Assembly: GCF_900143005.1 (NCBI RefSeq)
Contig: NZ_FRCS01000006.1
Location: 248,001-312,000, forward strand
DNA length: 64,000 nt
Direction of reading: 5' to 3'
DNA from: Cryptosporangium aurantiacum
GTDB lineage: Bacteria; Actinomycetota; Actinomycetes; Mycobacteriales; Cryptosporangiaceae
Shown: positions 45,894 through 58,462 of the stretch, one piece after another
Layout: the number at the start of each line of letters is the position of its first letter
Numbering within the stretch: the first letter of the stretch is position 1
Program-made: the position numbers and the translations under genes
Notes under the pieces: generated by a model
Told to the model about the DNA's origin: nothing
Database searches by the model: none
The model's input: the letters and a program-made list of their open reading frames with translations, nothing else

Positions 45894-47345
45894 TCAGCGG
45901 GCCGCGGTGTCCTCCCCCGCGGTGCGCCGCGCGATCGGGGCGGGTGGGGTTGCGGCCGGAAGTTCGACCCGGAGCAGCGCGCCACCGCGTGCGGAGCGGC
46001 CGACGGTAGCCCGGCCACCGTGGGCGTCGACGACGCGCTGCACGATCGACAGCCCGAGACCGGATCCCGGCAACGCCCGGGCGCTGTCGGCACGGTAGAA
46101 CCGGTCGAACACCCGGGGTACGTCGGTGGCGTCGATGCCCGGCCCGGCGTCGTCGACCTCGAGCACCGCCGACGCGTCCTCGGCTCGGAGCCGGACGTGG
46201 ACCGGCTGGTCTGTGGGTGACCATTTGCCGGCGTTGTCGACGAGGTTGAGCACCGCCCGCTGGAGCGCAGCGGGACGCCCGCTCACCCACACCGAGGTCA
46301 CGTCGAGTGCGACCTCGATGTCGGGCACGCGGGACCGCGCCTGGGTCGCGGCGGCGACCACCACGTCGGCGAGGTCGAGCAGCTCGGTGCTCTCGTCGCT
46401 GACGTCACCGCGTGCCAGGTCGGTCAGCTCGGCGGCGAGGGTGCTCAACTCGGCCACCTGGGTACCGAGATCGTTGAGCAGCCGGGTCCGGCTCTCCGCC
46501 GAGAGGGCAGTGTCGAGGGTGCCACGCCGGTCGAGCCGGACCAGCAGCTCGATGTTGAGGCGAAGACTGGTGAGCGGGGTCTTGAGCTCGTGCGCGGCGT
46601 CCTCGGCGAGCAGCCGCTGGGCCTGCCGGGAGTCCCGGAGCGCGGCGAGCATGTCGTTGATCGCCTGGATCAGCCGCCGGATCTCTCCACCGCCCTCATC
46701 CGGGATGTCGGCGTCGAGACTCCGGGTGTGCGCGACACGGACCGCGGCGGCGGTCAGCCGGTCGATCGGTGCCAGCCCGGTCCGCGCCACGGTGCGCCCG
46801 ACCAGGGCGCCGCCGACCACGCAGAGCAGCCCGATCAGCAGCATGCCGAACCCGAACTGGTTGATCGGGCTGTCGTCGGTGACGCCGGCGACCTGGACCG
46901 CGCCGTCGCCCGCCCGCAGCGTGTAGATGCGGTAGCCGTCGTCGTCGCTGTCGTGGGACTCCATCAGGTCGGCCGACGCGCCCCGCGCCACGCGCCCGGC
47001 GTGCTCGCTGACGGGGGGCAGCGCGGGTTGGCCGGCCGGCGTCCGGGTCGAGCCGTCGGGCAGGACGACCCGCACCAGCCGACCGGATCCGGTGTACGGC
47101 GATAGCTGGATCTTCGCCAGACCGGCGCGCTCCGCGTTCGTCGCCAGGACGCGGGCGTCGGCGCGCAGCTGATTCTCGGCGGTGTCCTGCAGTTCCCGGT
47201 CCAGTAGCTCGCTGGCCACCTGGAAAGACACGAACACGCTGACCGCGATGGCCGTCGCCGCGATCACCGTCAGCCTGGTCCGCAGGGACCGCCGGCGCCA
47301 CCACCGGGTCAGCCGGCGCGGTTCCCGGCGGGCGCGCCTGCTCAC
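45894..47345 (-). CDS. Sensor histidine kinase (MprB-like)
   Basis: A 483-residue kinase: TM1 near 24-45, extracytoplasmic sensor domain, TM2 ([20 protein letters not shown]), HAMP, HisKA with His in [20 protein letters not shown], HATPase_c with N-box [12 protein letters not shown]1 DDAGPGID and G2 [16 protein letters not shown]. Architecture and motifs resemble the mycobacterial MprB. GTG 47345 overlaps the stop of the regulator gene (GTGA), so translation is coupled. Confidence 0.9.
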
Positions 47346-48034
47346 GGAGGAGTCTCCCGCAACGTGTATCCCAGGCCGCGCAGCGTGTAGATCAATCGCG
47401 GCTCGCCCTCGGCCTCCATCTTGCGGCGCAGGTAGCTCACGTACACCTGAAGGTTGTTGGCGGTGGCGCTCATGTCGAAGCCCCAGATCGCCTCGAACAG
47501 CGCGTCGCGGGTCAAGACCCTGGTCGCGTTGCGCATGAGGATCTGAAGGAGGGAGAACTCGGTCCGGGTCAGGTGCAGCGGCCGCCCGCCCCGCGACGCC
47601 TCGAACCGGTCGGGATCGAGCCGGACGTCGGCGAAGGACAGGATCTGCGGCTCCTCGTCGGCCGGCGTGCGCCGGCGCAGCAGGGCCCGCACCCGGGCCA
47701 GCAACTCCTCGGTGGCGAACGGCTTGGGCAGGTAGTCGTCAGCGCCCGCGTCCAGCCCCGCGACCCGGTCCGAGACCTGGTCACGAGCGGTCAGCATCAG
47801 CACCGGCAGATCCCGGCCCGCAGCCCGCAACCGCCGACAGGTCTCCAACCCGCCGAGGCGGGGCATCCTCACGTCGAGGATCAGCAGATCCAGCATGTCA
47901 CCACCGGCCCCGCCGATCCCGTCGAGCACGGCGAGACCGTTGGCGACGGTGGTGGTGTCGTAACCCTCGACCTGGAGCACCCGCTCCAGCGACTCACGGA
48001 TGGCCGCCTCGTCATCCGCGATCATGATCCGCAC
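47342..48034 (-). CDS. OmpR-family response regulator (MprA-like)
   Basis: A 230-residue regulator: receiver [20 protein letters not shown] with Asp in [13 protein letters not shown], Thr in LMLTARDQ and Lys in [11 protein letters not shown]; winged helix with [20 protein letters not shown] and [22 protein letters not shown] 48034 is chosen as GGAGGGG lies 9 bp upstream and the sequence then matches the MprA start; ATG 48052 is an alternative. It is the upstream partner of the kinase gene. Confidence 0.9.
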
Positions 48035-48215
48035 GCGGGCCCACCCCTCCATCGATACTTTGCCGCTCACTCTCCCCGATCAACCTGAAGCCAGTGTTAG
48101 AGCCGTCGCCGGTGTGTGCCCGCGGCCGTACTCCAGCCGATGCTCGCACCCTCCCGATCTCCGGCCGAGTAAATGAAACGGCTCGCGCTCGGGTACGGCC
48201 GCCGGTCGCAACGCC

Positions 48216-49523
48216 TCACCGCCCCGCCTCGAGCTCGGTCTGCAGGGATCGCAGCAGCGCGTGCTGCCGCCGCACCTGGTCGCGTCCGCGGTAGGGGTCG
48301 CGGCGGCCCTCGTACTCGCTGGAGAGCCAGCCGCTCCATCCGGCGTCGAGCAGCGTGCGGAGGATCTCCCGCCACGGCACGTGCAGATCGACCAGATCGT
48401 CGTCGATCTCGAAGAACTTCGCCTGGATGAAGTGGACGTGCGGCAGGATCTCCGCGAGGTCGGCCATCGGAACGGCGAGCGGCTCGAGGAACGCGGGCCG
48501 CTTCTTGCCCTTCTCCGCTTGGACGCCCTCGTGGCCGTCGTCCACGGGTGCGGTCTGGAAGATGCCGGTGTCGATCAGCAATTTGAAGTGCTCGCTGCCG
48601 GTCTTCTCGATGAAGTCGAGATAACCCTGGGTGACCGGGTGGCGGATCGGTGTCGGGCTGTGGATCTCCGGGCAGATGACGACGTCGAGCTCGGCGGCGA
48701 GGTCCAGGCACCGTTCGACCACGCCGGTCCAGATCGGGTGCGGGTCGAGGTCGAAGGACGTGACGCCGAACTTCGGCCGCACCGAGGTGAAGGCCAGGCG
48801 GTGCGCCAGCCGCAGATCCCGTGCGAGGTGGGCCGCACCCTCCTCCGCGGTCAGGTCCCGATCGCGCCACATCGCGGTGTCCACCCAGGACCCGTAGTTC
48901 GTGGCCGTGAGCCCGTAGGTCTGCAGCAGCCCGTGCCAGCGGTCGATCCAGGCCGGATCCGGGTCGGGGTAGCCGGGGACGTTGCCCTCGCCGAGAATCT
49001 CGATGCCGGTGGCGCCGAGGTCAGCGACGTCCGCGAGGGCGTCTTCGAACGTCATCGACGTGTTGAGGTCACCGGAATAGCTGTAGGTCGAGACGGCGTA
49101 GCGGAGGCCGCCGTCCGGGGCCGGTGGCACGATCACGGTCCGGGCGGAAGCCGGGAACGCCGACCGCGACACCGCAGGCGGGAAGTACGGGCGGCGCAGG
49201 TAGACGACCACCTCGACGTGGTGGACCCCGACCGCGAGCCCGCCCGGCTTCGGCACGGTGATCGTGACGGTCTCGTCCAGCGCCCAGCGGACGTCGGTGG
49301 TCGCGCGCAACTGGTCGAGCGTGTAGGTGCGGCCCCGCACGGTCCAGACCGGGACCTCCCCGTCCCACTTCTCGCCGTCGACGACGACGTCCACACCGTC
49401 GAGCAGGCTGGCTGCCGTCCCTCGGTAGTTGGGGTTACGGAGCCGGAACTCGAAGCCGGTGACCTCGCCATTTTCGACGACGTTGCGAACGCCCCGGCCC
49501 TGGATGACGTTTCTCTCCAGCAC
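48216..49523 (-). CDS. Single-chain C-glycoside deglycosidase-like protein (beta-like domain fused to TIM barrel)
   Basis: A 435-residue protein with two parts. Residues 1-118 (VIQGRGVRNVVENGEVTGFE, LRNPNYRGTAASLLDGVDVV, YLRRPYFPP) match DUF6379/CGDB, the beta subunit of bacterial C-glycoside deglycosidases. Residues 138-435 are a sugar-phosphate isomerase/epimerase-like TIM barrel, the fold of the alpha subunit, with a plausible metal site: Glu286 (ICPEIHSP), Asp318 (LLIDTGIF), His364 (HVHFIQAKF), Glu403 (SSEYEG). In described enzymes the parts are separate chains that cleave 3-oxo-C-glycosides. GTG 49523 starts 4 bp after the stop of the oxidase gene, with GGAAAGGA upstream. Last gene of the operon. 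Substrate is inferred. Confidence 0.82.
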   Translation of the reverse strand: MLERNVIQGRGVRNVVENGEVTGFEFRLRNPNYRGTAASLLDGVDVVVDGEKWDGEVPVWTVRGRTYTLDQLRATTDVRWALDETVTITVPKPGGLAVGVHHVEVVVYLRRPYFPPAVSRSAFPASARTVIVPPAPDGGLRYAVSTYSYSGDLNTSMTFEDALADVADLGATGIEILGEGNVPGYPDPDPAWIDRWHGLLQTYGLTATNYGSWVDTAMWRDRDLTAEEGAAHLARDLRLAHRLAFTSVRPKFGVTSFDLDPHPIWTGVVERCLDLAAELDVVICPEIHSPTPIRHPVTQGYLDFIEKTGSEHFKLLIDTGIFQTAPVDDGHEGVQAEKGKKRPAFLEPLAVPMADLAEILPHVHFIQAKFFEIDDDLVDLHVPWREILRTLLDAGWSGWLSSEYEGRRDPYRGRDQVRRQHALLRSLQTELEAGR

Positions 49524-49527
49524 GACG

Positions 49528-51066
49528 TCAGTTCCTTTCCGCGGCGAGAGCGCCGGCGATCGTCCGGGCGCCGGCGACGGCGAGCGCGACGGAGGTGAGC
49601 GTGGGGTTGCAGGCGGTGGCGGTGGGGATGACGCCGTTGCCTGCCACGTACAGCCCGGCCACATTCCACACCTCGCTGTTGGGTCCGCAGACCGATGTTC
49701 CGTCGTCGGTCTCCCCCATCCGGACCGTGCCCTGGTAGTGCAGGGACGCACCAGGGGGAAACGTCAGCGGTTCGGCGTCCAGCGGGTCACCGAGGGCGTC
49801 CGCGGCGCGGCGGACGGCGTCCCGCGCGGCGGCGATCGACGCGTGGTCGGTCTCGGTGAGCCGGTAGTGGATCCGCATCGCGGGCAGGCCGTAGGCGTCC
49901 ACCTCGACGTCGTCGAACGCGACGCGATCGGATTCCTGGACGTCCTTGGCGCAGAACCATCCGAGGCCGACGATCGTGCCCGGCGCCGGCTCGTCGGCGT
50001 CAGCGAGCGGCACGGGCGAGGCGTCGAGCTGCATGACCTGGCCGTGGAACGGCTCGGCATCCGTGAACGGCACCCAGCTGACGCCGCTCTGCGGCACGAT
50101 CGCCGGCTCGTCGCCGCCGGTCGGCGCAGCACCGGACGCCACGTCCCGCAGGCGCACCGCGAAGACGGTCTGCGGCTGGTCGTTGAGGTAACGACCGAGC
50201 GCGGCGGGGCGAATGCCGGAGGCCCAGAGCAGCTGCGGTGTCCGTAGCGCGTCGGCGGCAACGACCACGTGGTGCGCGCGCACCTCGTGCTCCGTGCCGT
50301 CTCGCTGATCGCGGATGACCACTCCCTGAACCCGGCCGTCCGCCACCAGGGCCCGGGCCACCAGCGTCTCCGGGAACAACTCGAAGTTCGGATTCGCACG
50401 GGTCACGTCGCCGAAGACGACGTCCGCGCCCGACCAGGTCACCCGTCTGTCGGAGTGCGTGACGACGGCGAGGGGCATCGGCCCGACCCGGCGGTCGTCG
50501 GGCCGGCCGGGGTCGAGCGCCGCGCCGAGTCGCTTGCGGACCTCACCACTGAACGGCGCGTCGTCGAACGCGTGCGCGTCGACGTGCAGCAGCCGCTCGG
50601 CCTCGGTGAGCAGTTCGTCGAGGTCGTTCACGAACGGGATGCGTTCGCTCCCGCCCGGGCGTGGGCAGGCGCCGGTCCAGTGCGCGCCCATGCCACCGAC
50701 GTTGCTGGACATGGCGGCGCCGGGCAGCCCGTCCTCTCCGGGCTGGCGGTACCCGTCGGGTAGGAGGAACGTGCCCGGCCGGACGAGCCGCGGTGCGGCG
50801 TCGGCATACCCGTCGAGGGTGTCGACCGGCGTGTCGTCGGCCGCCGGTCGCGGCCCTTCCGACGCGCGCTGCGCGCGGGCCCGGGCGTCCGGGTCGACGA
50901 TGTTCTTCACGTGGACGCCGGGCGGGTCGGCGAGCAGCGGACCGACGTCGAACGCGGCGATCGTCGCTCCGGGTGCCTGTTCGCTCAGGATGCGGGCGTA
51001 GGCGGCACCGCACGGTCCGGTACCGACGATCGCGACGTCGACCTGCCGGGGGAATGTCCTGCTCAT
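49528..51066 (-). CDS. GMC/pyranose-oxidase-like FAD oxidoreductase (probable glycoside 3-oxidase)
   Basis: A 512-residue flavoenzyme. FAD motif VAIVGTGPCGAAYARIL (10-26), SSNVGGMGAHWTGACPRP near 118, and the C-terminal active-site pair His in LHYQGTVRMG and Asn in TACNPTLTSVALAVAGARTI are typical of the bacterial pyranose-oxidase-like group, in which glucoside and C-glycoside 3-oxidases (CarA type) occur. It would oxidise the sugar 3-OH, making the 3-keto substrate for the deglycosidase encoded 4 bp downstream. ATG overlaps the LivF stop (ATGA). No signal peptide is seen, so it is cytoplasmic. Confidence 0.85.
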   Translation of the reverse strand: MSRTFPRQVDVAIVGTGPCGAAYARILSEQAPGATIAAFDVGPLLADPPGVHVKNIVDPDARARAQRASEGPRPAADDTPVDTLDGYADAAPRLVRPGTFLLPDGYRQPGEDGLPGAAMSSNVGGMGAHWTGACPRPGGSERIPFVNDLDELLTEAERLLHVDAHAFDDAPFSGEVRKRLGAALDPGRPDDRRVGPMPLAVVTHSDRRVTWSGADVVFGDVTRANPNFELFPETLVARALVADGRVQGVVIRDQRDGTEHEVRAHHVVVAADALRTPQLLWASGIRPAALGRYLNDQPQTVFAVRLRDVASGAAPTGGDEPAIVPQSGVSWVPFTDAEPFHGQVMQLDASPVPLADADEPAPGTIVGLGWFCAKDVQESDRVAFDDVEVDAYGLPAMRIHYRLTETDHASIAAARDAVRRAADALGDPLDAEPLTFPPGASLHYQGTVRMGETDDGTSVCGPNSEVWNVAGLYVAGNGVIPTATACNPTLTSVALAVAGARTIAGALAAERN

Positions 51067-51800
51067 GTGCTCTGTGCCTGTTCGTGGTCGAGGTTCTCGT
51101 TGGAGCCGAGGTAGCTCGCGGTCAGCAGGTGGCGGTCCCGGAGCAGCTGCTCGGCGGGTCCTTCGACGACCAGGTCGCCGTGTACCAGCACGGAGCCGCG
51201 GTCGGCGATCGAGAGCGCCATCTGCACGTGCTGCTCGATCAGCAGCACACCGGCGTCGGCGTCATCGGCGAAGCGCCGCAGGATCGGCAGCAGGCGCTGG
51301 ACGATCACCGGCGCCAAGCCGAGGCTCAGCTCGTCGACCATCAGGACCCGCGGCCGCCGGGCGAGGGCCCGTCCGAGGCCGAGCATCTGCTGCTCGCCAC
51401 CGGAGAGCAGTCCCGCTCGTCGTTTGGCGAGCTTCCGGAGCGCGGGGAAGTAGTCATAGGCGAGGTCTCGGTCGAGCGTCTGCCGCCGGTGGCGGAGCCG
51501 GAAGTGCTCCTCGACGGTGAGGCCGCGGAACACACTCCGCGCGTCGGTCATCTGGACGAGCCCGGCGCGGGCCACCTGCACCGGGTTTCGTCCGGCCAGG
51601 TCGGCGCCGTCGAACCGGATCGTGCCGGCCATCGGCGTCAGCAGCCCGGAGGCCGCGCGCAGGGTGGTCGTCTTGCCGGCGCCGTTGGGGCCGAGCAGCG
51701 CGACGACCTCCCCCGCCTCGACGGCCAGCGACAGGTCGCGTACCACCGGCGACGAGCTGTATCCGAGCGTGACGTGGTCGAACTCCAGCAAGGGCGTCAT
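51063..51800 (-). CDS. ABC transporter ATP-binding protein, LivF type
   Basis: A 245-residue ATPase: Walker A LLGPNGAGKTTTLRAASGLL, signature LLSGGEQQMLGLGRALARRP, Walker B VLMVDELSLGLAP and H-loop IEQHVQMALSIAD. The short length and the LSLGLAP stretch are typical of LivF in branched-chain amino acid-type transporters. ATG 51800 overlaps the LivG stop. With LivG, LivHM and the binding protein it makes a complete importer. Confidence 0.92.
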   Translation of the reverse strand: MTPLLEFDHVTLGYSSSPVVRDLSLAVEAGEVVALLGPNGAGKTTTLRAASGLLTPMAGTIRFDGADLAGRNPVQVARAGLVQMTDARSVFRGLTVEEHFRLRHRRQTLDRDLAYDYFPALRKLAKRRAGLLSGGEQQMLGLGRALARRPRVLMVDELSLGLAPVIVQRLLPILRRFADDADAGVLLIEQHVQMALSIADRGSVLVHGDLVVEGPAEQLLRDRHLLTASYLGSNENLDHEQAQST

Positions 51801-52546
51801 GCCGGTACCTCCTCGCCGAGATAGGCCTCGATGACCGCCGGTGAGCGGCGGATCTCGTCCGGCGTCCCTTCGGCGATGAGACGGCCGAGGTCGAGGACGT
51901 AGACGCGGTCGCAGACGCCGAGCACCAGACCCATGTCGTGGTCGACGAGCAGCAGCGAGGTGCCGCCGTCCACCAACGACCGCAGCCGGTTGCCCAGCTC
52001 GAGGCTCTCGTCGGAGTCCAGGCCGGCCGCGGGTTCGTCCAGGCACAGCACCTGGGAGCCGGCGGCCAGCGCCCGGGCTACGTCCACGGTCTTGCGCTGG
52101 CCCTGCGACAGGTCCTCGGGGAACGTGTCGAGGACGTCGTCGAGTCCGAGCAGCGTCACCGCGGCGGTCGCGGCCGGTGAGGGGGCCGACCGGCCGGTGA
52201 GCAGCTCACGGAAGGATTGGCTCCAGGTGGGCCGGTGCGCTCCGACGTCGAGGTTGTCGCGCACCGTGAGGTCGTCGTAGAGCTCCGCGCCCTGCCAGGT
52301 GCGGCCGAGACCGCGGCGGGCGCGCTGGTGCGGCTTGGCGCGGGTCAGGTCGGTGCCGTCGAGCACGACCCGGCCGGTGCTGCGGGTGAAGCCGGTCAGC
52401 GCGTCGATAAACGTGGTCTTACCGGCGCCGTTGGGCCCGATCAGGCCGACCAGTTCACCGGCGCCGATCCGCAAGGACACCCCGTCCAGGGCCAGGTTCC
52501 CGCCGTAGCGCACGGTCAGGTCGGTGGTGGTGAGGACGTCGTTCAC
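51797..52546 (-). CDS. ABC transporter ATP-binding protein, LivG type
   Basis: A 249-residue ATPase: Walker A LIGPNGAGKTTFIDALTGF, signature DLSQGQRKTVDVARALAAGS, Walker B VLCLDEPAAGLDSDES, H-loop LLVDHDMGLVLGVCDRVYVL. The Q-loop region GRTWQGAELYDDLTVRDNL and DHDMGLV are LivG traits. GTG 52546 overlaps the permease stop (GTGA). Operon member between the permease and LivF. Confidence 0.92.
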   Translation of the reverse strand: MNDVLTTTDLTVRYGGNLALDGVSLRIGAGELVGLIGPNGAGKTTFIDALTGFTRSTGRVVLDGTDLTRAKPHQRARRGLGRTWQGAELYDDLTVRDNLDVGAHRPTWSQSFRELLTGRSAPSPAATAAVTLLGLDDVLDTFPEDLSQGQRKTVDVARALAAGSQVLCLDEPAAGLDSDESLELGNRLRSLVDGGTSLLLVDHDMGLVLGVCDRVYVLDLGRLIAEGTPDEIRRSPAVIEAYLGEEVPA

Positions 52547-54555
52547 CGGTGCACCTCCACGAGGTCGGGCGCCGGTGCCTGCGCGCCGCGGAGCCGCCGC
52601 CACAGCCGGCTGGGCCAGCGCGGTGGCGGTGCGAGCGCGATCCCGTCCGGATTGGTGATGACGGTGACGACGAGCAGGACACCGGCGAGGATGAGCTGGA
52701 ACGTCACCGAGATGCCCAGGTAGGTGTTGAGGACGTAGCTGAACAGGCCCTGGGTGATGAGCAGGCCCCCGAGCACGGCGCCGCGGACCGTGGTGATGCC
52801 GCCGAGGTAGGCGAACGCGACCAGGCTCAGCGTGTTCAGCACGGTGAAGCGGGTCGGGTCCAGCGAGCCGAAGTTGTAGCTGTAGAGAATTCCGGCCAGT
52901 GCCATGATCACGGTCGCGAGTGCGAACGTGACGAGCTTGATCCGGGCCGGCGAGATACCGACCGCGGCGGCCGCTCGCTCATTGGAGCGAACGGCGAGCA
53001 TCCGCTTGCCGAGGCTGCCGCGCCGGATGTTGGCCACCAGCACCGCGCAGGCGATCAGGACCAGCAGGACTCCGGCGCCGAAGAGCGGGCTCGGCCGGGC
53101 GCCGTCCAGCCCACGCACCGCCGAGTCGGTTCCGAGGGAGAACCCGAACACGGAGGGCTGCGCGACCGGCGCCCCGGACGCCGGCACACCCCAGGTGGAG
53201 TTGCCGAATCCGAAGCTGTTGAGCACCACGGCCCCGGCGAGCGTGAGGATCGCGAGCTGGACGCCGCGGACTCGCAGCGCGGGCAGCGCCATCAGTAGCC
53301 CGAGCACCACGGCTCCGACGACGCCGATCAGCGGTGCCCACGGCCAGCCCAGGCCGGTGTGTGCGGTGAGCTTGGACAGGATCAGCCCGGCGACTCCGGC
53401 GAGGCCGAACTGGAACAGTGAGACCTGGCCGACCAGGCCGGTCAGCAGTACCAGCGACAGGCACGCGACCGCGCCGATCAGCGACAGGATCAGCGCCTGC
53501 CGCAGGTCGTAGGGAAGGACGAACAACGCCACCAATGCGACGCCGCCGGCGAGCACGGTCGGGCGCAGCACCCGCTCGGGCGCCGGTGCCTTCGGGAGCC
53601 GCGGTTCGACCAGCGTGCCCCGGTCGGGCAGGCTCTGTCCGCGCCACAGCAGCGCGACGACGATCACCAGGAAGTAGAGCAAGTCGGTGACGCCGGGCCA
53701 GGCCACGCCGTCACTGGTCGGGAACCACGAGTACGTCTGCGCGACGGTCACCAACGACGCGAGGATGCCCATCCCGAGGCCCGCCACCGCAGCGATCAGG
53801 AAGCTGGTGAACCGGGCGAGCAGTGCGGCGCCGAGCGCTGGGACGACCGCGAGCGCGATCGTGCTCGGGTCCAGCTGCGTCAGCGGAGCGACGAAGATGC
53901 CGAGACCGCCGGCGATGACGGCCGAGATCACGGTGTTGGCCAGCGCGAGCCGCCCGGCGTTCAGACCGGACAGCGCCGCCTCCGCCTCGCTTTCCTGCGC
54001 CGCGCGGGTCGCCAGCCCGAACCGGGTGTAGCGGTACGCAGCCGCGAGGACGATCGTGAGCACGATGACTAGCGCCAGCAAATGGAGCCGGTTGCTGGGG
54101 ACGGCACCGCCGAACATCGTCACGGGGGTGGTCGGGAGCACGTCCGGCGCGGGTAGTCCCTGCGAACCGAAGACCAGCAGGACGTACGCCTGGACGATCA
54201 GCAGCACGCCGACCGTGGCGACGAGCGTCGCCAGCGGCGCTTGCCGGCGCAACGGCCGGAGTACCAGGTAGTGCAACGCCACCCCGGCCAGAGCGCAGAC
54301 CACGAGCGTCAGCGCGACGGCCGGGAGCAGCGGCACCACCATCCCCTCTGATCCGGCGATCCGCACCGGAGGGAAGAGGAGGTAGCCCTGGGCGCGCAGG
54401 CCGTAGAACACGTACGCCCCGAACATCGCGAGCGCACCGGTGGCGATGTTGATCGTCCCCGACCCGCGGTAGGTCGCGACCAGGGCCAGGGCGAGCCCGC
54501 TGATGAGCGCACCGGTGCCCAGGCCGAGCGCGGTGAACAGCAGGATCTGCTGCAT
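52543..54555 (-). CDS. Fused LivH-LivM ABC transporter permease
   Basis: A 670-residue membrane protein. Residues 1-290 are LivH-like (GLGTGALISGLALALVATYR, GSGTINIATGALAMFGAYVF); residues about 330-650 are LivM-like (LLTGLVGQVSLFQFGLAGVA, RRGSLGKRMLAVRSNERAAA and AVGISPARIKLVTFALATVI with the EAA-type loop). The two permease halves are normally separate genes. The C-terminal PSRLWRRLRGAQAP is a short cytoplasmic tail. ATG 54555 has GAGGAGGTAG upstream. Confidence 0.92.
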   Translation of the reverse strand: MQQILLFTALGLGTGALISGLALALVATYRGSGTINIATGALAMFGAYVFYGLRAQGYLLFPPVRIAGSEGMVVPLLPAVALTLVVCALAGVALHYLVLRPLRRQAPLATLVATVGVLLIVQAYVLLVFGSQGLPAPDVLPTTPVTMFGGAVPSNRLHLLALVIVLTIVLAAAYRYTRFGLATRAAQESEAEAALSGLNAGRLALANTVISAVIAGGLGIFVAPLTQLDPSTIALAVVPALGAALLARFTSFLIAAVAGLGMGILASLVTVAQTYSWFPTSDGVAWPGVTDLLYFLVIVVALLWRGQSLPDRGTLVEPRLPKAPAPERVLRPTVLAGGVALVALFVLPYDLRQALILSLIGAVACLSLVLLTGLVGQVSLFQFGLAGVAGLILSKLTAHTGLGWPWAPLIGVVGAVVLGLLMALPALRVRGVQLAILTLAGAVVLNSFGFGNSTWGVPASGAPVAQPSVFGFSLGTDSAVRGLDGARPSPLFGAGVLLVLIACAVLVANIRRGSLGKRMLAVRSNERAAAAVGISPARIKLVTFALATVIMALAGILYSYNFGSLDPTRFTVLNTLSLVAFAYLGGITTVRGAVLGGLLITQGLFSYVLNTYLGISVTFQLILAGVLLVVTVITNPDGIALAPPPRWPSRLWRRLRGAQAPAPDLVEVHR

Positions 54556-54582
54556 GACGGCTACCTCCTCCTCGTCAGCCGA

Positions 54583-55857
54583 TTACTGCGGCAGGCCCTG
54601 CCACGGCGTGGACGCCCACTTGCCATCGCCGGAGTAGGTGTAGAAGCGGTCAGCAGTGCCGGACAGCGTCGGCATGCCCCGCTCAGCCATCGAGCCGAAG
54701 GCGACCTTCGGCGTGCCGAGCAGGACACCGCCGGTGTAGGCCGCGAGCGCGCTCGACACCGAGGCTGGGGTGACCTTGTCGGGGCCGACCATGTTGAGGA
54801 CGTTCGCGAGCAGGAACGCGGCACCGAACGCCTGCGGGGCGCTGATACCCAGCTGCGCGTCCTTACCGGCGTACTTGCTCATCACGGCCTTGTAGAAGTC
54901 GAGCTGTCCGGTTTCGTCCGGCGCGTACAGCGACAGGACGGTGGACTCGTACGCCCACTTGGGGAAGTCGCCGAGCGCGGTCTTGATCTGGTCGGTGAGG
55001 CAGAGCGACGACGCGACGATCGGCACTGTGCTGCCGATCGACTGGAGTGCCTTGGCGGTGGCGGTGCACCCGGCGGTGGTGGTGTCCAGCGGCGCGATCG
55101 CGTCCGGCTTCGCCGACAGGGCGGCGGAGTAGGCGCTGGTCAGGTCGGTGCTGCCGCTCGGGTACGTGGTGACCTTCGACGTGATGCCGAAGCCGTTGAG
55201 GATTCCCTGCGCGGTCTGGGCGATCGAGAGGCTACCGGCGTCGCTGCCCGAGACGATGCCGATCGACTTGTAGCCCTTGGACTTGGCGTAGGTGGCCAGG
55301 CCCGGCAGAGCGGCGATGACGCTGGGGTTGACGGCGAACGCGTTCTTCGCGCTCAGGTCGGTACCCGGGTTGGCGAGCGCGATGACGTCCGGCTTGGCGC
55401 CGTTCAGCGTCTGGTGGACCGCGTCGGTGCCGACGTTGAGGCCGCCCTGCATGACGACGTCGATCGAGGAGTCGTTGAGGAACTTCTGCGCGCACTGCTG
55501 CGCTGACTCCTCCGACGAGGTGACCTTGCAGACCTCGACCTGGAGCGGGTGGCCGCCGATGCCGCCCTGTTCGGCGTTGATGTACTCGAATGCCGCCCGG
55601 ACCGCGGCGGACGCCTCCGGGTTGGAGATCGTCCCGCCTTCCTGGTTGATCAGCCCGACCTTGATCGGCGACTGAGAGTCCGATGCCTTACCGGGCTTGC
55701 CACCGCTGAACTGCGTGCCGATGGCACTGTCGATCGTCGTCGGGGTGGAGGTCGCGGAGGTCGCGGTCGAGTCGGTGGCGGCCTCGCCGCAGCCGGAGAC
55801 GAGCAGCGCCAGGGCGGCCGTGACGCCCAGCGATCTCGCCATGAGGGAACGCTTCAT
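54583..55857 (-). CDS. ABC transporter substrate-binding lipoprotein (LivJ type)
   Basis: A 424-residue periplasmic-binding-type protein. Lipobox LLVSGC-GEA after a short signal peptide; a Ser/Thr-rich linker; then a type I binding fold: IKVGLINQEGGTISNPEASA, YKSIGIVSGSDAGSL and PDAIAPLDTTTAGCTATAKAL. Lipid-anchored on the outer face, it would deliver substrate to LivHM/LivGF. LivJ-like proteins bind many ligands besides amino acids; the operon suggests a glycoside or its aglycone. Confidence 0.92.
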   Translation of the reverse strand: MKRSLMARSLGVTAALALLVSGCGEAATDSTATSATSTPTTIDSAIGTQFSGGKPGKASDSQSPIKVGLINQEGGTISNPEASAAVRAAFEYINAEQGGIGGHPLQVEVCKVTSSEESAQQCAQKFLNDSSIDVVMQGGLNVGTDAVHQTLNGAKPDVIALANPGTDLSAKNAFAVNPSVIAALPGLATYAKSKGYKSIGIVSGSDAGSLSIAQTAQGILNGFGITSKVTTYPSGSTDLTSAYSAALSAKPDAIAPLDTTTAGCTATAKALQSIGSTVPIVASSLCLTDQIKTALGDFPKWAYESTVLSLYAPDETGQLDFYKAVMSKYAGKDAQLGISAPQAFGAAFLLANVLNMVGPDKVTPASVSSALAAYTGGVLLGTPKVAFGSMAERGMPTLSGTADRFYTYSGDGKWASTPWQGLPQ

Positions 55858-55901
55858 GATCACCTCGTTGTGGTCGGAGGGGGTGGGGGTAGAGCGGGGT
55901 C

Positions 55902-56966
55902 TTATCGGGCGACGTCGACCCAGCCGCCGTCGCGAGCGGAGGTCAGTACGGCTTCGGTCAGCCGGGCGGCGCGAACTCCGTCGGCGAAGGTCGGCAATCC
56001 GTCGGGCAGTTCGCCCGTGAGCGCGGTGTAGGTGTCCGCCACGAACGCGTCGAAGCAGTCCTGGTAGCCCTGCGGGTGGCCGGGCGGCAGGATCGAGTAG
56101 GGCGCCTCGGCGCCTCGGAGTGCGATCCGGTTGACGTCCCGACCGCCGATCCAGAGGCTGTCCGGGTTCTCCTGGTCGAACTGGAGGCTCTCGACACCGG
56201 CGTCGATGGAGAACCAGAGCCGGTTCTTGCGGCCCGGACTGACCTGGCTGACGGTCAGGGTCCCGGCCGCGCCGCCGTCGGTCTCGAACAGCAGAAGCGC
56301 GGCGTCCTCGGTGCCTACCGGGCGGTCGCCGCGCACCGGGACCGCGGTCACGGTGCGGGCGGTCAACCGGACGATGCGGTGCCCGGTGACGAACTCGACC
56401 AGGTCGCACCAGTGCACGCCGATATCGCCGAATGCCCGGGACGGTCCACCTACCGCCGGGTCGACCCGCCAATCGTCGTCGCTCTCGGCGGCCAGCCAGT
56501 CCTGCAGGTACGAGCCGTGCAGCAGGCGGATCGGGCCGGTTGACCCGGCGGCGACGCGGGCGCGGGCTTCGCGCACGGTCGGGTAGAAGCGGTAGACGAA
56601 CGGCACGGTCGCGGTCACGCCCGCAGCGGTGGCCAGGTCGAGCAACTCCTGTGCGTCGGCCGCGCTCACCGCCAGCGGCTTCTCGCACACCACGTGCTTG
56701 CCGGCCGCGAGCGCCGCCCGCACCAACGGCGCGTGGGTGACGTTCGGCGTGCAGATGTGGACGACGTCCACGTCGTCGGCGGCCAGCAGTTCCTCGACCG
56801 TCTCGGTGGCCAGCTCGGGACGTAGTTTCTCAGCCGCCCGGCGCGAGGAGTCAGGCGAGGCGCCGACGACGCGGCTCAGTACACCGCCGGCCTGACGGAT
56901 CGCCCGCGTGTGGACGGTGCCCATGAAGCCGACGCCGATGACGCCTGCTCGGATCCGGTCGGTCAC
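55902..56966 (-). CDS. Gfo/Idh/MocA family oxidoreductase
   Basis: A 354-residue NAD(P)-dependent dehydrogenase: RAGVIGVGFMGTVHTRAIRQ, VVHICTPNVTHAPL, GKHVVCEKPLAVSAADAQEL and, at the catalytic region, RAFGDIGVHWCDLVEFVTGH. Members interconvert 3-keto and 3-hydroxy sugars, among other reactions, so it could recycle the 3-keto sugar released by the deglycosidase. First gene of the operon, with GAGGAGG before GTG 56966. It is divergent from the ROK gene. Confidence 0.9.
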   Translation of the reverse strand: MTDRIRAGVIGVGFMGTVHTRAIRQAGGVLSRVVGASPDSSRRAAEKLRPELATETVEELLAADDVDVVHICTPNVTHAPLVRAALAAGKHVVCEKPLAVSAADAQELLDLATAAGVTATVPFVYRFYPTVREARARVAAGSTGPIRLLHGSYLQDWLAAESDDDWRVDPAVGGPSRAFGDIGVHWCDLVEFVTGHRIVRLTARTVTAVPVRGDRPVGTEDAALLLFETDGGAAGTLTVSQVSPGRKNRLWFSIDAGVESLQFDQENPDSLWIGGRDVNRIALRGAEAPYSILPPGHPQGYQDCFDAFVADTYTALTGELPDGLPTFADGVRAARLTEAVLTSARDGGWVDVAR

Positions 56967-57007
56967 GCGTCCTCCTCGACGGCACCATCCTGTAACTGGG
57001 ACCACAT

Positions 57008-57030
57008 ACTTCTGCCGGTGACCGGAAAAG
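57008..57030. promoter_or_regulatory. Candidate ROK operator, site 1
   Basis: ACTTCTGCCGG followed, after TGA, by CCGGAAAAGGT: an imperfect palindrome (8 of 11 positions pair, counted by symmetry) about 42 bp upstream of the leftward operon start. The half-site ACTTCTGCCG recurs exactly, in opposite orientation, at 57140-57149. Confidence 0.5.
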
Positions 57031-57124
57031 GTCAATGCCTCGCAGACATAAGATCTTGGATGGTCAGCATTCACACCAGTGATAGGCCCGGCATAGCCCC
57101 GGAGAACGCATGCGGACTGGCGCG

Positions 57125-57149
57125 ACTTTTGCTTACAGTCGGCAGAAGT
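57125..57149. promoter_or_regulatory. Candidate ROK operator, site 2
   Basis: ACTTTTGC (57125-57132) and GCAGAAGT (57142-57149) form an inverted repeat with a 9-bp spacer; the right arm extends to CGGCAGAAGT, the exact complement of the half-site in site 1. It lies 38 bp before the ROK start, in a position for autorepression. Confidence 0.55.
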
Positions 57150-57187
57150 TTAGGATGGTCGGACAGGCCCAACACGAGGAGAAGCGC

Positions 57188-58462
57188 GTGTCGACGGAGC
57201 GGATCGAGGGCTTGGCAGCCGTGCTCACGGCCGTGCGCAACAGCGAGGGGATGACTCAGCCGCGCCTGACCCAGCACGTGGGCCTCGGTCGCAGCGTCGT
57301 CGCCCAGCGCGTCGCCGAGCTGGAGTCCGCCGGGCTGATCACCGATGACGGCTACGGTCCCTCCACCGGCGGCCGTGCCCCTCGCCGGCTGCGGATCCGC
57401 GCGGAGGCCGGCTACGTCGTCGGCGTCGATATCACCGCCCAACGGTTGGTGGTCGGGGTCGCCGACCTCGCCGGGACGCTCCTCGCGCAGTTAGAGGAAG
57501 TGGTCGACGTCGCCGACGGGCCCGACGCCGTGCTCACCACGGCCGAACGCCTCATCGACGACCACCTCGAGTCGATCGGACGTATCGCCCGTGTCTGGGC
57601 GATCGGTATCGGTGTTCCCGGGCCGGTCGAGTTCCGGACCGGTCAGCCCGTCGCACCGCCGATCATGCCGGGCTGGGATCGCTACCCCGTTCGGGACCGG
57701 CTCGCTCAGCGCTACGGCGCGCCGGCCTGGCTCGACAACGACGTCAACCTGCTGGCACTCGCCGAGTTGCGCACCAACCCCGCAGCCTCCGCGGCCCGGA
57801 ACATGCTCTACATGCGGGCCGATGTCGGCGTCGGCGCGGGTCTCGTCGTCAAGGGTGAGCTCTACCGCGGCGCCAACGGATCAGCCGGGGACATCGGACA
57901 CGTGGCCATCCCCGAGGGTGGCGACGCGATCTGCCGCTGCGGCAACACCGGGTGCCTCGAGGCCGTGGCCGGCGGCGCCGCCCTCGCCCGCGAGGGTCGT
58001 ATGCTCGCCGACACCCGGCAGAGCCCCGCGCTGGCCGCGACCCTCGCCGAGACCGGAACCGTCCGCCCTCTCGACGTCACGCTCGCCGCCGAGAAGGGCG
58101 ACCCTGCCGCCCGCGCTCTGCTGCAGCGGTCGGCGCACCTCCTCGGCGGGATGCTCGCGACGCTGGTCAGCTTCTACAACCCGAACCTGCTCGTCATCGG
58201 CGGCGGCATCGTCCGTGCCCGAGCACACGTCCTGGCCGCGATCCGCGAGGCCATCTACCGCCGGTCGCTCCCCCTGGCGACCCAGGACCTCCGCATCGAG
58301 ATGTCGAGCCTGCCCGACGACCTCGGCGGCGTCACCGGCGCCGTCCACCTCGCCCTCGACGAGGTCTTCTCCCCCGGCCGGCTCGCCCGCTGGCTGGACG
58401 CCGGCTCACCCGCCGGCCAGCCCTACATCGCAACCGACGACATGCTCGAACGACCAGCCTGA
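57188..58462 (+). CDS. ROK-family transcriptional regulator
   Basis: A 424-residue protein: N-terminal winged helix (MTQPRLTQHVGLGRSVVAQR, VAELESAGLITDDGYGPSTG) and a sugar-kinase-like ROK domain with the zinc/ROK signature SAGDIGHVAIPEGGDAICRC then GNTGCLEAVAGG. GTG 57188 has GAGGAGAA upstream. ROK repressors respond to sugars. It is divergent from the seven-gene operon ending at 48216, and two related half-site pairs lie in the gap, so it most likely controls that operon and itself. Confidence 0.9.
   Translation: MSTERIEGLAAVLTAVRNSEGMTQPRLTQHVGLGRSVVAQRVAELESAGLITDDGYGPSTGGRAPRRLRIRAEAGYVVGVDITAQRLVVGVADLAGTLLAQLEEVVDVADGPDAVLTTAERLIDDHLESIGRIARVWAIGIGVPGPVEFRTGQPVAPPIMPGWDRYPVRDRLAQRYGAPAWLDNDVNLLALAELRTNPAASAARNMLYMRADVGVGAGLVVKGELYRGANGSAGDIGHVAIPEGGDAICRCGNTGCLEAVAGGAALAREGRMLADTRQSPALAATLAETGTVRPLDVTLAAEKGDPAARALLQRSAHLLGGMLATLVSFYNPNLLVIGGGIVRARAHVLAAIREAIYRRSLPLATQDLRIEMSSLPDDLGGVTGAVHLALDEVFSPGRLARWLDAGSPAGQPYIATDDMLERPA

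Follow-up and report, generated by a model that had tools for sequence, protein, structure and literature searches.

A predicted operon for import and cleavage of aromatic glycosides beside a ROK regulator in Cryptosporangium aurantiacum

The gene cluster and its relatives

In this study, we analyzed a cluster of eight genes in the actinomycete Cryptosporangium aurantiacum (genome of 9.58 Mb, GC about 70%), which occupies positions 48216-58462 of a 64-kb stretch of contig NZ_FRCS01000006.1, the whole of which is referred to here as the window. A preliminary description had reported seven leftward genes and a divergent ROK gene, and inspection of open reading frames (ORFs), their translations and Pfam matches confirmed that all eight are present (Table 1). 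From the divergent promoter the leftward genes run in the order Gfo/Idh/MocA dehydrogenase (Gfo hereafter), lipoprotein, fused LivH-LivM permease, LivG-like ATPase, LivF-like ATPase, GMC oxidase and fused cleavage enzyme, with the ROK gene on the opposite strand. Because the spacing between them, from Gfo to fused enzyme, is only 44, 27, -4, -4, -4 and 4 nt, the seven genes are likely to form a single transcription unit. The raw ORFs of the Gfo, binding protein and LivF genes were too long at their 5' ends and their coordinates were refined. The gene content agrees with the linked module for import, 3-oxidation, cleavage and reduction beside a ROK gene that had been proposed, and we put at roughly 70% the probability that the cluster is an operon for the breakdown of aromatic glycosides, most likely those of plants and C-glycosides foremost, in which these steps would be under ROK repression. 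This interpretation draws on gene content and order, homology, most active-site residues, and a conserved palindrome that goes with one clade of ROK proteins.

Table 1. Genes and predicted sites of the cluster, and the two-component system to its left (window coordinates).
Feature	Position	Strand	Basis
Gfo/Idh/MocA dehydrogenase, 354 aa, probable 3-keto-sugar reductase	55902..56966	-	Pfam PF01408/PF22725, NCBIfam
LivK/HAAT-kind binding lipoprotein, 424 aa	54583..55857	-	PF13458 (Peripla_BP_6), lipobox LVSGC
Fused LivH-LivM permease, 670 aa	52543..54555	-	Two BPD_transp_2 stretches
LivG-like ATPase, 249 aa, GTGA overlap with permease stop	51797..52546	-	PF00005 + PF12399 (ABC_tran + BCA_ABC_TP_C)
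LivF-like ATPase, 245 aa, ATGA overlap	51063..51800	-	PF00005 (ABC_tran)
FAD glycoside 3-oxidase, 512 aa	49528..51066	-	GMC_oxred_N/C, PDB 7qf8 and 7dve matches
Fused C-glycoside-deglycosidase-like enzyme, beta + alpha, 435 aa, GTG start	48216..49523	-	PF19906 (CGDB) + PF01261 (AP_endonuc_2), 8qrz match
ROK-family regulator, divergent, probable repressor	57188..58462	+	PF00480 E 1.1e-47, weak N-terminal helix-turn-helix match
Predicted operator O1, 15/18 to ACTTCTTCC-N7-GGAAGAAGT	57008..57032	.	Overlaps TTGAC element before Gfo gene
Predicted operator O2, 14/18, weaker	57125..57149	.	Beside ROK gene, 117 bp from O1
Response regulator left of operon	47342-48070
Histidine kinase left of operon	45894-47345

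Gene order was compared in other actinomycetes, as had been suggested, and these genes proved to be linked there as well: relatives of the fused enzyme from further actinomycete genera are encoded next to Gfo, oxidase and ROK genes, and the class of importer varies. Relatives from named genomes comprised 11 loci out of 68 pattern-matching stretches. A search of the class at 1e-40 found the fused enzyme in 5 of 394 genomes. At 1e-60 it was found in 6 of 345 genomes of the Actinoallomurus order and in 14 of 112 of the Geodermatophilus family; all of these counts include split forms and the query genomes. A total of 26 rows were aligned, 22 of which are full-length fusions from 21 genomes (the fused loci); closer relatives share 70-77% identity in the fused enzyme. 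Duplicate loci from the same genome (L007, L095, L096, L099, L100) were excluded from the trees; those of the C-glycoside deglycosidase (CGD), glycoside 3-oxidase (G3Ox), ROK and Gfo proteins are quick searches, and those of LivHM and the final ROK set are careful ones. For the seed genes the importer family was read from Pfam matches, and for the remaining loci from phmmer matches to those seeds.

Oxidation and cleavage of the glycoside

Judged by its sequence, the oxidase is a glycoside 3-oxidase. Its best Protein Data Bank (PDB) matches were 7qf8 (PsG3Ox, E 1.3e-211) and 7dve (MtCarA, E 2e-202), and it carries every feature by which G3Ox/CGOx enzymes were recognized, namely the GMC domains, the catalytic His/Asn pair (H443/N487, equivalent to H440/N484 of PsG3Ox), the AHW motif at the flavin site and the substrate loop, here ASPVPLAD. 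No signal peptide was seen by eye. In the quick-search tree the oxidase is sister to those of loci with Opp-type importers (79% identity). Operons of the Actinoallomurus type have two divergent oxidases in tandem (L003:13669-16592, L085:11677-14606), as do several Geodermatophilaceae clusters with CUT1-type importers. A Geodermatophilus C-glycoside cluster contains an AhpC/TSA peroxiredoxin-like gene (L008:1917-2876) directly behind the palindrome described below, whose product may remove the H2O2 of the oxidase.

The fused enzyme has a CGDB domain at residues 2-113 (PF19906, E 6.8e-38) and a TIM-barrel alpha part (PF01261) in a single 435-residue frame, instead of separate alpha and beta CGD subunits. 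The preliminary description had named a fused deglycosidase, but such a fusion is not new: over residues 1-430 the protein matches the solved single chain 8qrz/8un2, also of 435 residues (E 8.5e-141, 473 bits), which by sequence is the same beta+alpha fusion. Residues E286, H288, D318, K369, E403 and E405 fall at published CGD positions. The catalytic His and Glu (H149 and E307 of AgCGD2) correspond to H288 and E405 and are kept in all 26 rows, the window included. The metal set of one His, two Glu, one Asp and one Lys is incomplete, as E286, D318, K369 and E403 are kept and the His is replaced. This protein is the sole CGDB match in its own genome, and no fused-enzyme match was found at E 1e-30 in four other genomes of the same family. 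Across the phylum the CGDB domain was present in three of 396 genomes, including this one, too few for a base rate of its linkage to HAAT importers. The Geodermatophilaceae fused enzymes of G771, G831 and G836 each have one TGA within the matched stretch, which is either a natural stop with the alignment running on or an in-frame stop.

Reduction and the hydration step

The Gfo protein had levoglucosan dehydrogenase as its best NCBIfam match, at 158 bits versus a cut-off of 650, and is up to 77% identical to Gfo proteins adjoining other fused enzymes. In the analogous pathway of Agrobacterium, oxidation and elimination are followed by hydration and then reduction (PMC10628242). The operon had been called complete, which goes too far, as the hydration step has no candidate gene in it. 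The candidate hydratase family, AP_endonuc_2 proteins scoring at least 627 bits, is encoded in or beside five of the 22 fused loci (L003, L004, L010, L012, L097) and in three loci with split subunits (L055, L056, L087). Its absence here is not odd, because most fused loci likewise show no such gene in view. Moreover, a 73% identical copy is encoded in another operon of the same genome (G000:C4:152869-153870); by analogy, this protein could supply the hydratase in trans.

The same genome thus holds a second operon of the 3-keto-sugar type (L061:8864-18987), in which ROK, CUT2-type ATPase, permease, Peripla_BP_4, Gfo and AP_endonuc_2 genes stand beside a FGGY kinase gene. Regulation of that operon from the same site as the window operon was considered and rejected, since L061 has no palindrome with three or fewer mismatches. 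In Klenkia operons, a GH43 glycosidase gene (L005:11296-12774, L007:11296-12771) occupies the place where some relatives have the AP_endonuc_2 gene.

Exchange and origin of the importers

The fetched stretches show importer genes, of different families, for 19 of the 22 fused loci. HAAT importers were found in three (the window, L003 and L085), Opp/Dpp importers in eight (L004, L005, L094 and L088-L092), CUT1 importers in seven (L008, L009, L012, L093, L097, L098 and L053, with L097 and L098 from one genome) and an MFS_2 transporter in one (L006). No importer was in view in the other three (L010, L011 and L054), of which L010 and L011 begin at contig ends.

The window and Actinoallomurus operons have a HAAT importer in the same slot behind Gfo, and their ROK proteins are orthologous (69-71% identity). 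Nevertheless, the permeases appear to differ in ancestry. That of the window belongs to a five-row clade (100/100) with L049, from the same genome, and with L020, L021 and L022; when it was held together with L003/L085, the tree was 47.8 log units worse (p-AU 0.000264), and a single inherited HAAT permease was rejected by this approximately unbiased (AU) test. The evidence for separate origins is thus strong, but it is not clean because the group was defined with the tree already in sight and L003/L085 sit on a long branch (2.14). Replacement in place of one HAAT importer by another would give the same picture. The L003 permease is, in addition, fused to LivG, and fused LivHM permeases as a type occur widely, in 56 of 394 genomes at 1e-60.

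Other members of the window permease clade have varied neighbors. L052 has a same-strand ring hydroxylase, a dienelactone hydrolase and an acyl-CoA-dehydrogenase-like gene, a set of the aromatic-catabolism type, and L051 has a transposase, a sensor kinase and an amidohydrolase. L049 (G000:C3:254023-273000) encodes a paralogous fused LivHM importer, 55% identical to that of the window, beside amidohydrolase and luciferase-like genes and with an FAA hydrolase gene about 2 kb past the importer cassette; it is possibly an aromatic importer.

Class and possible ligand of the importer

The HAAT (Liv-type) makeup of the window importer is complete, with a LivK-type protein, LivH and LivM domains, a LivG with BCA_ABC_TP_C, and a LivF, although none reached the NCBIfam equivalog cut-offs for LivF/G/H/M and Urt; the LivF-like ATPase scored best to UrtE and then LivF, both below cut-off. 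The binding protein is 24-27% identical to its Actinoallomurus counterparts and 20% identical to Escherichia coli LivJ and LivK. The GPEG segment of LivJ, which we take to have a role with the ligand, is not kept in the alignment. The predicted fold (from a four-sequence alignment, with a mean pLDDT confidence score of 67.7) is of the LivK type. In single-sequence PDB searches, both binding proteins ranked the Rhodopseudomonas palustris structures 3tx6/4f8j/4fb4, 4jb0 and 3ukj first, and for the Actinoallomurus protein the R. palustris matches reached 8.5e-15 compared with about 9e-5 for the Leu/Ile/Val-binding protein.

Use of a branched-chain-type importer for a glycoside had been described as unusual. 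This holds for a sugar, but the importer is less odd for an aromatic glycoside because aromatic acids are among the ligands of this family (PMC3223731, PMC3610893). CouP, whose complexes with coumarate and caffeate are structures 4f8j and 4fb4, has nanomolar dissociation constants for phenylpropenoids (PMC3610893). Among 22 R. palustris COG0683 proteins whose ligands did not match their annotation, very few are reported to have responded to branched-chain amino acids; the ligands of this group were other amino acids, fatty acids, and aromatic or dicarboxylic acids (PMC3223731). An importer that reads the aglycone is, on these similarities, a plausible hypothesis.

The ROK regulator and its predicted operator

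The ROK domain scored well above its cut-off, whereas the helix-turn-helix match (HTH_24) reached 21.8 bits, just below the Pfam cut-off of 21.9. The GTG at 57188, with GAGGAG upstream, is the more likely start, rather than the ATG at 57110. An alignment of the divergent promoters of the window, L003 and L085 revealed two conserved islands, each near ACTTCTTCC-N7-GGAAGAAGT, a consensus that was taken from the Actinoallomurus site after the alignment had been seen. At O1 the arm positions match at 18/18 in L003 and 15/18 in the window and L085, and at O2, near ROK, at 14/18 in all three. The starts of O1 and O2 are 117, 118 and 117 bp apart in the window, L003 and L085, respectively, near 11 helical turns, a spacing that would suit looping.

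The palindrome with three or fewer mismatches occurs once in the window compared with 0.01 expected, and in about 1.04 Mb of sequence scanned all places at 15/18 or better lie in such clusters. In Geodermatophilaceae clusters of the CUT1 type it precedes Gfo (L124, L125, L126) or a peroxiredoxin-like gene (L123), and all four have a further palindrome between ROK and the importer block. It was found at 15/18 or better in all seven loci with a window-clade ROK in view, and the 10 ROKs of palindrome-bearing loci form one clade (99/99) relative to 13 ROKs from other stretches. The best copy in the 13 stretches with those other ROKs, including all eight Opp-type loci, was 13/18 or less, with the qualification that L088-L092 are cut inside the ROK gene and their upstream sites lie out of view. 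The ROKs of L097, L098, L010, L011, L053, L054, L055 and L087 are absent from view or fragmentary and were left unclassed. Taken together, the palindrome is probably the ROK operator, as predicted from its conservation and from its occurrence together with this ROK clade.

Copies also occur elsewhere. In eight whole genomes, 42 places had three or fewer mismatches compared with seven for the pattern read backwards, and one palindrome-like sequence, perhaps in a coding region, recurs slightly changed in six of the eight. Copies at 14/18 lie inside the clusters of L008, L009, L010 and L093 and in L050, off promoters as far as seen, and because of these the assignment of O2 rests on its position. 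The 472 nt upstream of Gfo in L055, whose ROK is out of view, have no copy above 12/18. A 13/18 copy at the ROK/Gfo promoter of L006:3491 (a Streptomyces metagenome-assembled genome with a ROK of another branch) is possibly a degenerate site or chance. Loci L123, L124 and L126 each have a tandem ROK pair, between whose genes L123 and L124 carry an extra palindrome copy (15/18 and 14/18).

Proposed pathway and alternatives

In the pathway that we propose, the lipoprotein would capture the intact glycoside outside the cell, possibly recognizing its aromatic aglycone, for import through the fused LivHM permease and its two ATPases. A cytosolic FAD (flavin adenine dinucleotide) oxidase would then oxidize C3 of the sugar with O2, and the fused beta/alpha enzyme would separate sugar and aglycone in an elimination assisted by a metal and by His. 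Hydration of the keto sugar set free, perhaps by the related AP_endonuc_2 protein of the second operon, would come next, followed by reduction through the Gfo dehydrogenase. The ROK protein would repress both its own gene and the operon from the two palindromes until a sugar-like inducer binds. A wider proposal is more tentative, and we hold it with somewhat less than even confidence: that intact aromatic C-glycosides have become the cargo of Liv-type importers, by way of the aglycone rather than the sugar, in two or more independent recruitments, in a pathway whose enzymes remain similar while its importer has been exchanged among four families (three of the ATP-binding cassette type and one MFS) and which has a dedicated ROK switch acting through the palindrome.

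A number of results weigh against these interpretations. The metal-ligand His269 (AgCGD2 numbering) is Gln367 in the fused enzyme and Gln in all 26 aligned rows, and Ala mutants of metal-binding residues are reported to cause dramatic activity loss in two CGDs. Gln also stands at this place in 8qrz, whereas the four other PDB chains of the comparison have His. Because of this substitution, throughout the rows and in 8qrz, the enzyme is best classed by sequence in a CGD-like fused subfamily rather than as a proven CGD. For the binding protein of the window the CouP-type match is weak (E 6e-7), a four-row profile ranked first other HAAT proteins (4obb/4nqr), the ligands of which include a branched keto acid and valine, and the predicted fold was equally close to LivK-type proteins with ligands of different classes, with root mean square deviations near 12 nearly throughout. 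A promoter scan returned no site, and the nine palindrome places in the genome of C. aurantiacum all have three mismatches, so that eight elsewhere score equal to that of the operon. To these are added the reservations on the AU test given above and the close kinship of L003 and L085, which makes the HAAT linkage two independent cases.

Three other explanations have to be considered. The true substrates could be aromatic O-glycosides, with the fused enzyme eliminating the aglycone from 3-keto O-glycosides and not from C-glycosides, an explanation that deserves attention though we think it unlikely. The related oxidases PurA (PMC12724307) and Microbacterium MPOx also accept O-glycosides, and the invariant Gln could signal a shifted reaction. 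Conversely, the 3-keto O-glycosides made by PurA are reported to shed their aglycone spontaneously, so that no dedicated lyase is needed (PMC12724307), and the window enzyme retains CGDB, His288, Lys369 and both Glu. Another explanation is that the importer serves some other compound, such as an amino acid or a free aromatic acid, and came to lie with the glycoside genes by chance, the glycosides entering otherwise. The family is named for amino acids, only three of the 22 fused loci have a HAAT importer, and the permease clade includes systems beside other catabolic genes; but we judge a chance association to be improbable, given that the importer genes are placed between Gfo and the oxidase with 4-nt overlaps, that two HAAT importers of apparently separate origin occupy the slot behind Gfo, and that 19 of the 22 fused loci have an importer in view.

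The remaining explanation, that the operon degrades a non-plant sugar compound (e.g., a levoglucosan-like anhydrosugar or a bacterial glycoside) and that the fused enzyme is an isomerase or hydratase, seems very improbable. It would accord with the best match of Gfo, though this is far under the cut-off. In addition, AP_endonuc_2 proteins are functionally diverse. Against it stand the CGDB domain and an enzyme of the C-glycoside-3-oxidase type with the G3Ox substrate loop.

Comparison with known systems

The enzyme route itself is already established in related soil bacteria. PurABC of the soil actinobacterium Paenarthrobacter sp. No. 37, which acts on puerarin and whose activity is induced by it, likewise uses a FAD oxidase and then a CGD, but its lyase is heterodimeric (PurB of 344 and PurC of 136 residues), whereas the window enzyme is a single chain (PMC12724307). 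CarA/CarBC of Microbacterium and the PsG3Ox cluster of Pseudarthrobacter siccitolerans share with the window the oxidase family, the substrate loop and the oxidase-CGD linkage, but have separate B and C lyase genes (PMC10646112, PMC8563793). The closest counterpart of the window enzyme is 8qrz/8un2, annotated as "Sugar phosphate isomerase", with the same metal-site Gln. In DgpABC and the Dfg enzymes of gut Bacillota, 3-oxidation is also followed by CGD cleavage; the oxidant there is an NAD-dependent Gfo-type enzyme (NAD, nicotinamide adenine dinucleotide) rather than a FAD oxidase (PMC8563793, PMC12724307), and the gut CGDs are alpha4beta4 rather than fused. The GlycDH-AtOGE-AtHYD-Gfo operon of Agrobacterium has the same logic of oxidation, elimination, hydration and reduction, but acts on O-glycosides, with a sequence-unrelated lyase and a putative hydratase within the operon (PMC10628242). 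The importer has its counterpart in CouPSTU of R. palustris, where a LivK-type binding protein and ABC importer take up plant phenolics, although its ligands are free phenylpropenoid acids and not glycosides, and the sequence match to the window is weak (PMC3610893).

Six C-glycoside papers (PMC8563793, PMC10646112, PMC10807413, PMC10628242, PMC11673046 and PMC12724307) make no use of the word "transporter" in their main texts, and the last of them none of "uptake" and "regulator". A study of gut Catenibacillus mentions transporters five times, none tied to C-glycosides in the portion available, and names uptake as a possible limit (PMC11170127). Among the papers listed in literature searches, none has a title or opening of the abstract that describes a HAAT importer, its repeated recruitment, an exchange of importers or a ROK site for C-glycosides. 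What the present analysis would add is the HAAT importer as a candidate C-glycoside importer, its apparent repeated recruitment, the exchange of importers and the predicted ROK site. The locus supplies a candidate importer and a candidate regulator for soil-bacterial breakdown of aromatic C-glycosides. If its importer recognizes the aglycone, the locus could also serve in building sensors and strains for plant phenolic glycosides.

The left boundary of the operon

A two-component system lies immediately to the left of the fused-enzyme gene. In the fetched stretches, the window DNA is similar to two same-genus genomes from 43.6 kb (L132) and 41.3 kb (L133), and the similarity ends at 48109 and 48133, respectively, between the response regulator (ending at 48070) and the end of the fused enzyme (48216). 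The two-component system was rejected as part of the operon, as both genomes carry that stretch without the operon. Because the similarity stops between these two genes, the two-component system belongs to the backbone that these genomes share. The operon stands at a breakpoint and was either gained here or lost in the relatives.

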